41,848 nt of DNA from Gammaproteobacteria bacterium (GTDB taxonomy: Bacteria > Pseudomonadota > Gammaproteobacteria > PS1 > Pseudothioglobaceae). The translations under genes and the position numbers were made by a program. A model generated the notes under the pieces. The model was not told where the DNA came from, did not search any database, and worked only from the letters and a program-made list of their open reading frames with translations. This document shows, in pieces, positions 703 through 4,669 of the stretch. How positions within the stretch are numbered: the first letter of the stretch is position 1; the number at the start of each line of letters is the position of its first letter. The stretch covers positions 1 through 41,848 of the forward strand of contig JASLYC010000072.1 of NCBI GenBank assembly GCA_030739975.1. Reading direction: 5' to 3'.

Positions 703-1164
703 CTAAGGCTTTATTTTGTGGCTAGGCACTATCATATTGAGTAATTCATCTGCCTCGTTAATATCAACAATCTCACCAATATTATTAACCATTTCTAGGT
801 CGTTATCATTCCACCCTTTAATACCAAGTTTTAATGACCTTACGTTGCAAAAATTCATATTTATTAATGTCAATGCAGCAAGTGCAGACCGTCTTCCAGA
901 TCTACACACAACTACTATGTTTTGATTACGAGAGCCAGCAAGGATTGGTATAGTTTCACCATAGTTCCAAACACAAGACTCCTCAAGTAAGCCTCTCGGG
1001 ACATGTAAAGAGCCTTTGATGTGCATTAAATCGAATTCGCTTTGTTCCCTCACATCTAAAATAATAGGCGCTGGTTCAGTTTTTATTTCCTCCTCTAAAT
1101 CCCAAGGAAATAACTCTGTCACAAACTCTAAAGCATTATCTACAAGGCTTTGGTATTCGTCCAT
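703..1164 (-). CDS. Rhodanese-domain protein
   Basis: This 153-residue single-domain rhodanese (sulfurtransferase fold) has an active-site loop CRSGRR at residues 87-92, with C87 as the likely persulfide-forming cysteine. The usual LDVRE strand is at about 36-40 and the GSLHVPRG segment at about 51-58. There is no signal peptide or membrane segment, so it is probably cytoplasmic. Its ATG directly abuts the stop of the NarL-like regulator (1165), so the two are translationally linked and it is the last gene of the mnmE-kinase-regulator-rhodanese run. Sulfur relay or a redox-sensing link to the cysteine-bearing kinase are possible roles; neither is shown by the sequence. The family assignment is firm and the substrate is unknown. 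Confidence 0.85.
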   Translation of the reverse strand: MDEYQSLVDNALEFVTELFPWDLEEEIKTEPAPIILDVREQSEFDLMHIKGSLHVPRGLLEESCVWNYGETIPILAGSRNQNIVVVCRSGRRSALAALTLINMNFCNVRSLKLGIKGWNDNDLEMVNNIGEIVDINEADELLNMIVPSHKIKP

Positions 1165-1806
1165 TTAATTGAGCCTATCTTTACAGCACCCCTGTTCAGT
1201 AATCATAACTGCTACTTCAACTCTTGAGTTTAGAGATAATTTTTTAAGTATTGATTTGACGTGAAGTTTTACTGTGCCATCTGATATTCCTAAATCTCGG
1301 CCTATCACTTTATTGCTACAACCACTAGCTACTTTACATGCGACCTCTTGTTCTCTATTAGTTAAGGATTCAAAAGAAGCTTCATTGTCAGTTAATTCAT
1401 TCTTTAAAACTTTAGCCAAAATATGAGTCATCTCTTTTGCTACAACTATTGAGCCTTTAACAATCTCCCCTATAGCGTCTACCAATTCATCTGGATCCAT
1501 ATCTTTTAATAGGTATCCTTGCGCTCCATGTTTTAAGCAATTACGTAAATCATATTCTTCAGTGCTAGTAGTGAGCATTACTACTGGTGATTTTATGTTT
1601 TTAGATTTTATTAACCTCAGAACCTCGATGCCTGACATTTCAGGCATGCGCAGATCCAATAGAATAATATCAAAACAAAATTTCTCTATTTGTATTAAGC
1701 CTTCTTTGGCAGTTGCAGCAGACTGCGCATTTATCTTTCTTGACTCTAGTAACGAAATTAAACCGTTTCTAAATAATGCATGGTCGTCAATAATATATAC
1801 ATTCAT
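1165..1806 (-). CDS. NarL/FixJ-family response regulator
   Basis: This 213-residue two-domain regulator has an N-terminal receiver with the acidic pair D7-D8 and the phospho-acceptor D51 (in LLDLRMPEMSG). A C-terminal LuxR-type helix-turn-helix spans about residues 146-200 (LTNREQEV...SDGTVKLHVKSIL). It is a DNA-binding transcription factor of the NarL type. Its ATG lies 2 nt downstream of the stop of the kinase gene, so it is almost certainly the cognate partner of that kinase. Denitrification or other electron-acceptor genes are the usual targets of NarL proteins, but none are in this window, so the regulon is unknown. It could equally be a regulator of oxygen or redox response. Confidence 0.9.
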   Translation of the reverse strand: MNVYIIDDHALFRNGLISLLESRKINAQSAATAKEGLIQIEKFCFDIILLDLRMPEMSGIEVLRLIKSKNIKSPVVMLTTSTEEYDLRNCLKHGAQGYLLKDMDPDELVDAIGEIVKGSIVVAKEMTHILAKVLKNELTDNEASFESLTNREQEVACKVASGCSNKVIGRDLGISDGTVKLHVKSILKKLSLNSRVEVAVMITEQGCCKDRLN

Positions 1807-1808
1807 AG

Positions 1809-3287
1809 CTATTCCTTAAAAGTAACAATAACACGCGTGCCTTCTCCAATATCAGACTCTATATCAATTTTAGCGCCAATTATTTCTGCCCTCTCTTTCA
1901 TAATATTCATTCCAATATTATTCCCCATTATTTCGTATTCATCCTGATCTTTCTGAAACCCTACACCGTCATCCTCAATGAGTAGTTTACAAGTTGGCTC
2001 AGAAACTAATAGTATCCTTACATTTTTTGCTTTTGCATGTTTACGAACATTTGCTAACGCCTCTTGGGTAATTCTTAGAATTTGAATTTCAACTTCAGGA
2101 AGTAATTTTAGTCTTCCATTGACTTGAAAAAAAGTTGCTATACCCTCTTCAGATTTAAATCTATTAACAAGGTTCTTTAATGATACCTCGATACCTTTTG
2201 CATCAAGAGGAACTCTGAAATTACACATTAACTCTCTAAGTTCCTGATTTGCCTGGGTAATGTTATCTTGCAAATTTGCTATCTTTTTACTAGCACTTGA
2301 GGTGTTGCTATTTTTTATTGAATCTCCTAGAACGGTTGTTTGCAATTTTAGACTGTATATAGTTTGAGCTAAAGAGTCGTGCATTTCTTGGGATAATAAT
2401 AATCTTTCTTGAGATAGTTCCATTCTTTTTGTCTCTCTATCAAGCCTGGCCTTGTCCAAAGCAACAGAAATATTGTCAGAAATTGATTGCAGCAAAGCTC
2501 TTTCATCTTGCGCTAATGATGGCTCAATATCGAAAAATAAATTAAATATGCCTAAGGTCTTATTGTGGTACCTTAATGGAATAAAGATAGAGCCAACCTT
2601 GGCCTGCTGTTGAGATTTCTTACCAACACATTTTGCGCAAGTATGGACACTGAACTGAACATAAGCATCTTGCGCTAAAGCTATCTCACCACAAAAACAA
2701 TCTGAAACTAATATTTCTGAAACCTGCCCATTTTTATCTATCACTCCTCTGGTAGCAGCTAATTGCAATTCGCCATTGGCATTAAGGCTTCTTGCTACAC
2801 CTGATCGAGCGCCTGTCATATTAATATAAATATCCAAAAAACTTTCGAACAGCTCATTGGTAGAATGCATTTTATTTAGCTTTGAAGAAATACCATAAAG
2901 AGTTTCTAGTGAGGCTGACTTTTTACTTAGACGCTGTATCTGTTTCTTGAGAATAGTTTCCATGTCGTCATATAAATATTGATTTTCTTCTATAAGGTGA
3001 TTAATTGCACTAGCAATAGGTTGGAATGATGACGGTTGTTTTTCTTCTAGCCTAGCATTTTGATTAATTTTGTAGCCCCTTACCCATTTCTGTAATTCAT
3101 TGAATGGTAATAAGAAATCTTTACGAATGACAAAGTATAAGGCTATAAAAATAACTAAAATTACTAAGCTAATCAATCCATCAATATAGCTAGAGCTGTT
3201 GTAAAACAAAATTACTTCAATAACTAGAGCAAACGATAGTGCAATAGTAATTAAAAAATATAATAAAAATTTTGTTTTAATGCTCAT
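1809..3287 (-). CDS. NarX-like sensor histidine kinase with GAF-region cysteine cluster
   Basis: This 492-residue membrane kinase has two N-terminal transmembrane segments (about 8-28 and 36-55) separated by a very short loop, then a HAMP-like linker. A GAF-like domain (about 145-280) follows, then a HisKA_3 dimerisation domain with phospho-acceptor H303 in EMHDSLAQT. The C-terminal HATPase has an N-box at about 408-420, DDGVGF at 439-444 and GMNIMKERA at 459-467. The GAF region carries C197, C199, C217 and C220, resembling the central cysteine cluster noted in NarX-type sensors. The periplasmic nitrate-binding region of E. coli NarX is absent, so the signal is more likely sensed in the cytoplasm, perhaps redox or O2 through the cysteines (inference). 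It is operonic with the response regulator. Confidence 0.87.
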   Translation of the reverse strand: MSIKTKFLLYFLITIALSFALVIEVILFYNSSSYIDGLISLVILVIFIALYFVIRKDFLLPFNELQKWVRGYKINQNARLEEKQPSSFQPIASAINHLIEENQYLYDDMETILKKQIQRLSKKSASLETLYGISSKLNKMHSTNELFESFLDIYINMTGARSGVARSLNANGELQLAATRGVIDKNGQVSEILVSDCFCGEIALAQDAYVQFSVHTCAKCVGKKSQQQAKVGSIFIPLRYHNKTLGIFNLFFDIEPSLAQDERALLQSISDNISVALDKARLDRETKRMELSQERLLLSQEMHDSLAQTIYSLKLQTTVLGDSIKNSNTSSASKKIANLQDNITQANQELRELMCNFRVPLDAKGIEVSLKNLVNRFKSEEGIATFFQVNGRLKLLPEVEIQILRITQEALANVRKHAKAKNVRILLVSEPTCKLLIEDDGVGFQKDQDEYEIMGNNIGMNIMKERAEIIGAKIDIESDIGEGTRVIVTFKE

Positions 3288-3328: not shown

Positions 3329-4669
3329 TTATTTTCCAATACAAAATGAAGAAAATATCTCGCCCAATAAATCGTCTGAAGAAAATTCACCTGTAATGCT
3401 ACCCAGCTGAAGGCCTGCTTGACGCAAATCTTCTGCCAGCAACTCACTCGCACTACTGCTTAATTGAACTATACCATTTTGAATGTAACTAAGAGCAGAT
3501 TCAAGAGCTATTATGTGTCTTTTTCTTGCCAAGACAACATTTTCTCCTAAGTCATTAAACCCAGCAATCCGAGCCAACTCATCTCTCAATAGATCAACAC
3601 CTGATCCATGTTTTGCCGATATTGTTAATTCAACCATATCCAAATTGCTTGATTTAGAAACTGACTCATTAGTTAAATCTGACTTGTTTTTTACCAGCAA
3701 TATTGGCTTATCTTTAACGCTTACAGGAAGTATTGATAGGTCGGCATTTTTCTCTTGCGCATCATATACAACAATAACAACATCAGCCCTTTCAATTTCT
3801 ACATGTGCTCTTTTTATTCCTTCTTTTTCAATTTTATTGTCACTTAAATGGAGGCCCGCAGTATCAATAATATTCAACGGCATTCCATTTATATGTATTG
3901 TCTCTCTCAATATATCTCTAGTAGTTCCAGCCTCATCTGTTACTATTGCACTAGATTGAAGTGTAAGAGCGTTTAACAGTGAAGATTTCCCAGCGTTCGG
4001 TTTTCCTGCAATCACTATATACAAGCCTTCCCTCAAAATAGCTCCCTGTTTTGCAGAGCTAAGTATATCTATTATCTTGTTTTCAATATTTATTATCTTT
4101 TCCATTGCACGATGAGATTCCAAAAAATCTATATCTTCATCAGTAAAATCAATGGTTGCTTCTACAAATACACGAAGCTCAGTGATTGAGTCATTTATTC
4201 CATTCACTTTAGAAGAAAATTCACCCGACAATGATCTTAAGGCTGATCTTGCTGACTGTCTGGAATTGGCAGAGATAAGATCAGCAACAGCCTCTGCCTG
4301 AACTAGATCCATCTTGCCATTTAAAAATGCACGCTTTGAAAATTCACCAGGCTCAGCAGCTATAGCGCCCAACGTAATTACTGCATCCAACAAACTGCTC
4401 ATTACCTTGGTTCCGCCATGGCCTTGCAGCTCAAGAACATCTTCCCCTGTAAATGAGTTTGGAGCTGGAAAAAATAATGCCACACCCTTGTCAATAATTT
4501 CAGCATCTTGGCCAAAAAAAGAACCATAGTGTGCGAAACGAGGCTTTGGTTTATAGCCTAGCATTTTTTTTGCAATATCAAGTGTGTGTGGGCCAGATAC
4601 ACGAATTACTCCCACTCCCACTTGTCCTATACCACTAGCAATTGCACAAATGGTGTTAATACTTCCCAT
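3329..4669 (-). CDS. mnmE: tRNA modification GTPase MnmE (TrmE)
   Basis: MnmE works with MnmG to install the 5-(carboxymethyl)aminomethyl group at wobble U34 of certain tRNAs, using a methylene-THF-derived carbon. The 446-residue protein has the full family layout: an N-terminal THF-binding domain, a helical domain, and an embedded G domain with P-loop GKPNAGKS (222-229), DTAG and NKSD motifs. It ends with the diagnostic C-terminal CIGK, whose cysteine is conserved. The ATG at 4669 fits the family start (GSINTICAIAS). The kinase gene begins 41 nt downstream on the same strand, so co-transcription is possible. Confidence 0.97.
   Translation of the reverse strand: MGSINTICAIASGIGQVGVGVIRVSGPHTLDIAKKMLGYKPKPRFAHYGSFFGQDAEIIDKGVALFFPAPNSFTGEDVLELQGHGGTKVMSSLLDAVITLGAIAAEPGEFSKRAFLNGKMDLVQAEAVADLISANSRQSARSALRSLSGEFSSKVNGINDSITELRVFVEATIDFTDEDIDFLESHRAMEKIINIENKIIDILSSAKQGAILREGLYIVIAGKPNAGKSSLLNALTLQSSAIVTDEAGTTRDILRETIHINGMPLNIIDTAGLHLSDNKIEKEGIKRAHVEIERADVVIVVYDAQEKNADLSILPVSVKDKPILLVKNKSDLTNESVSKSSNLDMVELTISAKHGSGVDLLRDELARIAGFNDLGENVVLARKRHIIALESALSYIQNGIVQLSSSASELLAEDLRQAGLQLGSITGEFSSDDLLGEIFSSFCIGK

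Follow-up and report, generated by a model that had tools for sequence, protein, structure and literature searches.

What does a kinase sense when it resembles the nitrate sensor NarX and has no periplasmic domain, and which genes does its partner regulator control? The question is raised by three adjacent minus-strand genes of a gammaproteobacterium of the family Pseudothioglobaceae (order PS1), located on contig JASLYC010000072.1 of assembly GCA_030739975.1; its positions 1–41,848, the whole stretch of DNA that was analysed, are termed the window. The genes encode a sensor histidine kinase of 492 amino acids (1809–3287), a NarL-like LuxR-type response regulator of 213 amino acids (1165–1806) and a single-domain rhodanese of 153 amino acids (703–1164). 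Comparison of sequences indicates that they probably encode a sulfurtransferase and a two-component system derived from NarX/NarL, with a sulfur or redox signal in the cytoplasm as its input and the dsr genes and sat as its targets. Reverse dissimilatory sulfite reductase (reverse DSR) is a core sulfur-oxidation route of SUP05-type bacteria and of the symbionts of clams and mussels. An earlier note on this DNA had hinted at control linked to sulfur or redox state, having seen that the rhodanese start codon abuts the regulator stop codon. The gene coordinates confirm this direct junction, and the gap between kinase and regulator is 2 nucleotides. The sulfur link is now stronger than the rhodanese alone would make it, because relatives of these genes adjoin dsr genes, the kinase co-occurs with dsrA and a conserved NarL-type site lies upstream of dsrA.

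The kinase has two transmembrane helices, placed by hydropathy at residues about 8–26 (3210–3266) and about 35–53 (3129–3185), followed by a linker and by GAF, HisKA_3 and HATPase domains recognized by Pfam; no HAMP match was found at E values up to 1. The GAF domain (GAF_2, residues 141–278, 2454–2867) also has a predicted fold that matches solved GAF domains, with a mean predicted local distance difference test score (pLDDT) of 68 and weak loops in the AlphaFold model. A sequence search of the PDB returned kinase cores and one weak match over the GAF region (3p01, E 0.005). The phospho-acceptor residue of the HisKA_3 match is His303 (codon 2379–2381), in a column that is invariant in 15 sequences from the order. 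The loop between the helices comprises 8 or 14 residues, depending on the hydropathy window used, compared with 126 and 114 in E. coli NarX and NarQ by the method that gives 14. The periplasmic nitrate-binding domain with its P-box, found between the helices of NarX and NarQ, is absent with a loop of this size, as the earlier note had concluded from the short gap. The best NCBIfam names for the kinase are NarQ (166.8 of 553 bits) and NarX (124.8 of 578), and for the regulator NarL (209.4 of 250), all below the curated or equivalog cut-offs.

The genomic surroundings of this module were compared within the order and the class. In 83 genomes of the order a threshold of E ≤ 1e-60 gave 49 kinase matches in 48 genomes; the neighbour and cysteine checks in the order cover the 30 of these 49 loci that were fetched. 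Simple motifs identified an upstream mnmE in 28 of them and a downstream regulator likewise in 28, one of the misses (L025) being a contig end. SUP05, Candidatus Thioglobus, Ruthia, Ruthturnera, Vesicomyosocius and Bathymodiolus symbionts are among the named relatives (38 loci), which makes it very probable that the window stems from this group. In a class sample of 274 genomes the kinase was matched in 96 (E ≤ 1e-40), of which 93 lie outside the order; 73 of these 93 loci were fetched, among them all 11 whose genomes have the kinase and no dsrA match. Under strict criteria dsr genes are present in 56 of the 73, and in 38 of the 56 a rhodanese adjoins the kinase–regulator pair. The order that recurs, mapped with tblastn, is dsrL-J-O-P-N-R followed by kinase, regulator and rhodanese, with dsrA-B-C in front in some longer stretches. 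The names dsrL, J, O, P, N and R were assigned from domains together with the published order dsrABEFHCMKLJOPNRS, as excerpts of the literature give it.

Placement as the last part of the dsr operon is found in class relatives and not in the window's own family, in which the module lies beside mnmE. No kinase was found in six dsr stretches of the family that run as far as dsrR (L162–L167); the dsr stretch of the window's own genome (L161) is covered as far as dsrO. In one class locus (L119) clustering and profile scans placed a PRK12771-type NAD(P)-binding iron–sulfur (Fe-S) flavoprotein, a 4Fe-4S protein, a CobB/CbiA-type protein and an Fe-S_biosyn protein beside the module; its NrfD protein is a weak DsrP match under the cut-off, and its dsrJ candidate has no Pfam match. 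Another locus (L156) has dsrA, dsrB and DsrC/TusE above the NCBIfam cut-offs. Here a Cas6-like protein (PF09559, E 1e-50; L156 6546–7235) adjoins dsrC near the kinase; the same cluster occurs in L140, L141 and L145, and in L141, L145 and L156 dsrAB is divergent.

The membrane part of the dsr-linked kinases bears on where the signal is received. By a hydropathy threshold 46 of the 56 have two transmembrane segments separated by 2–22 residues, ten have one segment or none, and none has a long loop, a feature of three of the 17 class kinases that are not dsr-linked. Since no dsr-linked kinase is long-looped and ten have at most one transmembrane helix, the signal is probably cytoplasmic; to judge from these sequences, kinase input is most likely cytoplasmic or membrane-borne. 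In a tree of kinase cores, in which several branches are long and the bootstraps have not settled, four family members of the window's kinase fall among the class kinases, apart from E. coli NarX and NarQ (98/95 on the split).

Kinase and dsrA occur largely in the same genomes. In the order, where 49 of 83 genomes have dsrA, 46 have both, two have only the kinase (G074 and G080), three have only dsrA (G047, G069 and G072) and 32 have neither. One of the kinase-only genomes, G080, has a stretch at a contig edge that is 85% identical to a dsrA promoter region. In the class sample the corresponding numbers are 85, 11, seven and 171, and among 299 genomes sampled from the phylum all four dsrA-positive members of the class have the kinase. 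When genus g5 (29 genomes) is left out, p for the association with dsrA in the order is 0.0074; the p-values given here are descriptive only, as the tests ignore relatedness.

The rhodanese follows the kinase closely. An orthologue (E below 1e-45) is present in 42 of the 48 kinase-positive genomes of the order and in none of the 35 kinase-negative ones. It is a Pfam Rhodanese match with the active-site loop CRSGRR, an instance of the pattern CRxGxR; the catalytic Cys87 is kept in 41 of 42 aligned sequences, the remaining one having a gap, and Cys64 in 37. In genome G212 a homologue (L322 6066–6854) directly follows dsrR with neither kinase nor regulator, and for this reason the rhodanese seems to be tied to dsr independently of the pair. 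That genome also lacks the dsrA-upstream site described below.

The regulator consists of a receiver domain (PF00072) and a GerE/LuxR helix-turn-helix domain (PF00196), the arrangement of NarL-type regulators. It is up to 56% identical to regulators of the class and 37% identical to E. coli NarL. An alignment of 70 sequences (69 class loci and the window) shows the NarL contact residues Lys188 and Lys192 kept in all 70 and in 69, respectively, with Val189 replaced by leucine in 67. The recognition helix of the window's regulator, GTVKLHVK, is found in 66 of a set of 71 sequences that includes E. coli NarL.

A putative binding site was sought upstream of dsrA. Forty upstream regions (L201–L240) were scanned first with TACYNMT-NN-AKNRGTA, which we take to be an E. 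coli-style consensus; in most regions this pattern did no better than shuffles and it was rejected. Seventeen of the 40 best matches displayed a recurring palindrome, which was then tested as TAYCCCY-NN-RGGGRTA and TAYCCC-N4-GGGRTA. Within one mismatch the latter pattern is present in 20 of 20 kinase-positive dsrA regions of the family (14 exact) and in 18 of 20 of the class (12 exact), the other two matching with two mismatches. These counts include the regions from which the pattern was derived; L280–L299, L327–L343 and the genome-wide scan are independent of the derivation. Among 12 class kinase-positive regions not used for it, ten match within one mismatch, eight of them exactly, one matches with two and one only with three, so that 28 of 32 such regions match overall. 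Dinucleotide shuffles gave 0 to 0.005 matches per region within one mismatch. Five class genomes with dsrA and without the kinase have no match within two mismatches, two more (G152 and G161) having been left out with the gene match near a contig end, and none of 14 held-out dsrA-positive genomes outside the class matches within two. With starts called mechanically, the distance from the first base of the site to the dsrA start is 131–143 bp in the majority of family regions and 87–279 bp in the first 20 class regions. The palindrome has the 7-2-7 inverted-repeat layout published for NarL sites (PMC7419079, in the parts available).

Genome-wide counts also place the exact site mainly before dsrA. 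The window's genome has a single exact site in 1.51 Mb, beginning 141 bp before dsrA. The order as a whole (83 genomes) contains 54 exact sites, spread over 38 genomes, compared with seven for the reversed pattern; 28 lie before dsrA, one at the contig-edge promoter of G080, ten before sat, the gene for ATP sulfurylase (two assigned by Pfam and eight by similarity to these), and three before prmA, and the remaining 12 are at other or unassigned positions, two of them in genus g5. In loci L119–L200 (1.22 Mb, dsrA stretches included) 11 exact sites stand against none for the reversed pattern, and ten are upstream of dsrA, three of these in the dsrA match loci L158–L160. The exact sites before prmA belong to three genomes of one genus (L300, L303 and L318); others lie between the phosphofructokinase and fructose-bisphosphatase genes in L309 and before a cytochrome c gene in L311.

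A part in reading the signal is conceivable for four cysteines that the earlier note had placed in the GAF region, and that it thought might bind a metal, carry an Fe-S cluster or serve as thiol switches. Their positions are correct: the motif C197-x-C199-G...C217-x2-C220 (2628–2699) lies inside the Pfam GAF match. The conservation on which that note had staked the idea holds in one sample and partly fails in another, since all four cysteines are kept in 30 of 30 loci of the order, whereas among the 56 dsr-linked class kinases outside it Cys197, Cys199 and Cys217 are all present in 35 and all missing in 11, and Cys220 is in none. It is conceivable, if rather unlikely, that the system regulates the sulfur pathway with an Fe-S cluster on these cysteines reporting oxygen or redox state, as in AirS. 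Their complete retention in the order favours such a cluster, as do the published Fe-S kinase AirS (PMC8774646) and a mention of Fe-S GAF sensors (PMC8199190), both known to us from parts of these papers. The loss of Cys220 in all 56 relatives, and of the other three in 11, argues in the opposite direction; the motif also lies largely in a low-confidence part of the AlphaFold model, where the geometry of a cofactor is unreadable because much of the cysteine stretch has a pLDDT below 50.

The cysteine cluster looks like NarX heritage, because it also occurs in long-loop or P-box kinases and in nar-linked NarX kinases. The columns of Cys197, Cys199 and Cys217 are cysteine in three of three long-loop kinases (L147, L170 and L175, the last with a P-box). 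Two nar-linked NarX controls, from Cupriavidus necator pHG1 and Caballeronia, have CxCG, with the next cysteine 29 and 21 residues on, respectively, compared with 17 in the window. The cysteines of E. coli NarX fall on the columns of Cys197, Cys217 and Cys220 in one alignment and are otherwise placed in another. According to PMC3519889 and PMC1805755, in the parts available, a cysteine cluster marks NarX; the window kinase carries one in its GAF-like region. The motif was set aside as a special feature of the module, being found in long-loop kinases and absent from some of those linked to dsr; in this kinase it could still be a sulfur sensor.

Several observations weigh against control of dsr by this module. 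Much of the co-occurrence in the order stems from genus g5, whose 29 genomes have neither kinase nor dsrA, and none of 48 dsrA-positive genomes outside the class in the phylum sample has the kinase. The kinase tree, in which the label 'dsr-linked' is looser than in the strict locus count (L171 and L175 are included), does not cleanly separate these kinases from the P-box kinase L175. Within two mismatches of TAYCCCY-NN-RGGGRTA the window's genome has 29 sites against 21 for the reversed pattern, which is no enrichment, and the one-mismatch sites in L119–L200 number 12 against 11, eight of the 12 being upstream of dsrA. Around the module itself, 12 family loci have no site within one mismatch; two sites, both inside genes, match within two. 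Three held-out class genomes with kinase, regulator and dsrA (G559, G586 and G610) have no match within two mismatches, the best having three. Their recognition helix is DTVKLHVR, and their kinases, over the part matched, showed no cysteine motif. In G559 and G586 the pair is convergent to the dsr genes, and the stretch from G610 has no dsr gene. Lastly, G047, G069 and G072 of the window's family have dsrA and an exact site, yet no kinase match; our guess is that the kinase was lost in assembly at the ribosomal RNA (rRNA) operon.

The palindrome could belong to another regulator, with the kinase and regulator merely travelling with dsr and controlling something else. Its absence near the module and from the three held-out genomes, and its presence in three genomes without a kinase match, are what this explanation would predict. 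We consider it improbable, as the site is missing from all five class genomes examined that have dsrA and no kinase, and has the NarL layout, and as the regulator keeps Lys188 and Lys192, the recognition lysines of NarL.

Nitrate genes (narG in 26 and napA in 12 of the 83 genomes) fail to explain the presence of the kinase across the order. A NarXL/NarQP nitrate or nitrite system whose periplasmic domain was lost, with nitrate now sensed in the cytoplasm or through a partner protein, is very unlikely and disfavoured here: it can call on the NarQ, NarX and NarL names and on an association with narG/napA over the whole order (both 25, kinase only 23, nitrate genes only four, neither 31; p = 0.00015), but those scores are below the cut-offs, the association is gone without genus g5 (p = 0.67), the kinase is kept in single-contig genomes with no threshold narG/napA match (e.g. 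G036, G037, G041, G042 and G056), and the neighbours in relatives are dsr genes, while the nar-linked controls from C. necator and Caballeronia keep loops of 151 and 144 residues. Two members of genus g5 without dsrA and kinase, G022 and G030, carry narG.

We favour a sulfur-responsive system that would work as follows. The GAF domain of the kinase would read a signal on the cytoplasmic side, namely sulfane sulfur, sulfide or redox state, and the kinase would phosphorylate the regulator. This in turn would bind TAYCCC-N4-GGGRTA upstream of dsrA, and in some genomes before sat, adjusting expression of cytoplasmic sulfur oxidation. The rhodanese would be a sulfur carrier of the reverse-DSR pathway and may supply the signal. 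The module would then be part of that pathway, ending the dsr operon in most class relatives fetched and standing beside mnmE in the SUP05/Thioglobus-type family. A more tentative proposal is that it is the general regulator of reverse DSR in Gammaproteobacteria, in which the partner rhodanese or DsrC passes sulfane sulfur to the GAF cysteines of a kinase descended from a nitrate sensor and so sets dsr and sat expression. If so, the cell would read its own cytoplasmic sulfur flux and the NarX/NarL names would mislead. The module is retained even in Vesicomyosocius symbionts, whose chromosomes measure about 1 Mb, which suggests that the control matters. A defined kinase and regulator, a candidate DNA site and predicted targets (dsr and sat) are now on offer for direct test.

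Around the module in the window, mnmE (3329–4669, minus strand, an NCBIfam equivalog above its cut-off) lies 41 nucleotides before the kinase, and the 5' part of a 16S rRNA gene (1–436) follows the rhodanese. Where the module adjoins that gene, in positions 1–700, there is a promoter-like match at 637–610. The genome to which the window belongs, 1.51 Mb in 95 contigs, has the kinase in single copy. Elsewhere on the plus strand (10546–30577) a one-carbon operon encodes a corrinoid protein (MtgC-like, under the cut-off), a trimethylamine-type methyltransferase without an in-frame stop, an AcsV/RamA-type activator, formate–tetrahydrofolate ligase, formate dehydrogenase and the alpha subunit of sarcosine oxidase, a gene content that suggests methylated-amine use by a sulfur oxidizer.

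Full-text literature searches, in which subscription journals are poorly covered and an earlier description could have escaped, found no two-component system described in a dsr locus in the parts of papers returned. Among other two-component systems, we take NreB–NreC of Bacillus licheniformis to be of the NarL family, and we know of no dsr link for AirS–AirR of Staphylococcus aureus. From the available parts of the cited papers, Allochromatium vinosum shares the dsr operon with relatives of the module (PMC3368242; for DsrR also PMC11406059). No transcription regulator of dsr is named in the parts available: dsr transcripts are described as raised by sulfide, DsrS is called unresolved, and DsrR is credited with a part in regulating sulfur oxidation. 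NreB–NreC, as excerpted, is sulfide-responsive and activates sqr–pdo, and like the module it is a two-component control of a sulfur-oxidation cluster with a rhodanese-like protein; unlike the module it has a PAS rather than a GAF sensor, is Gram-positive and controls sqr/pdo and not dsr (PMC9918477). AirS, reported in part of its source to read redox through an Fe-S cluster (PMC8774646), is likened here by description only. The sHdrR and SoxR proteins of Hyphomicrobium also exert sulfur-responsive control over a sulfur-oxidation pathway but are described, in the excerpt available, as ArsR-type one-component sulfane-sulfur repressors (PMC12423496). In contrast to NarX–NarL and NarQ–NarP, the module has no P-box domain, scores below the NCBIfam cut-offs, is linked to dsr and not to nar and has relatives free of transmembrane segments, and its recognition helix GTVKLHVK differs from STVKIHVQ and STVKIHVR of the two nar-linked controls. 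What it shares with them is a HisKA_3 kinase with a GAF-like domain and a cysteine cluster, a NarL-type regulator and the 7-2-7 layout of the candidate site.

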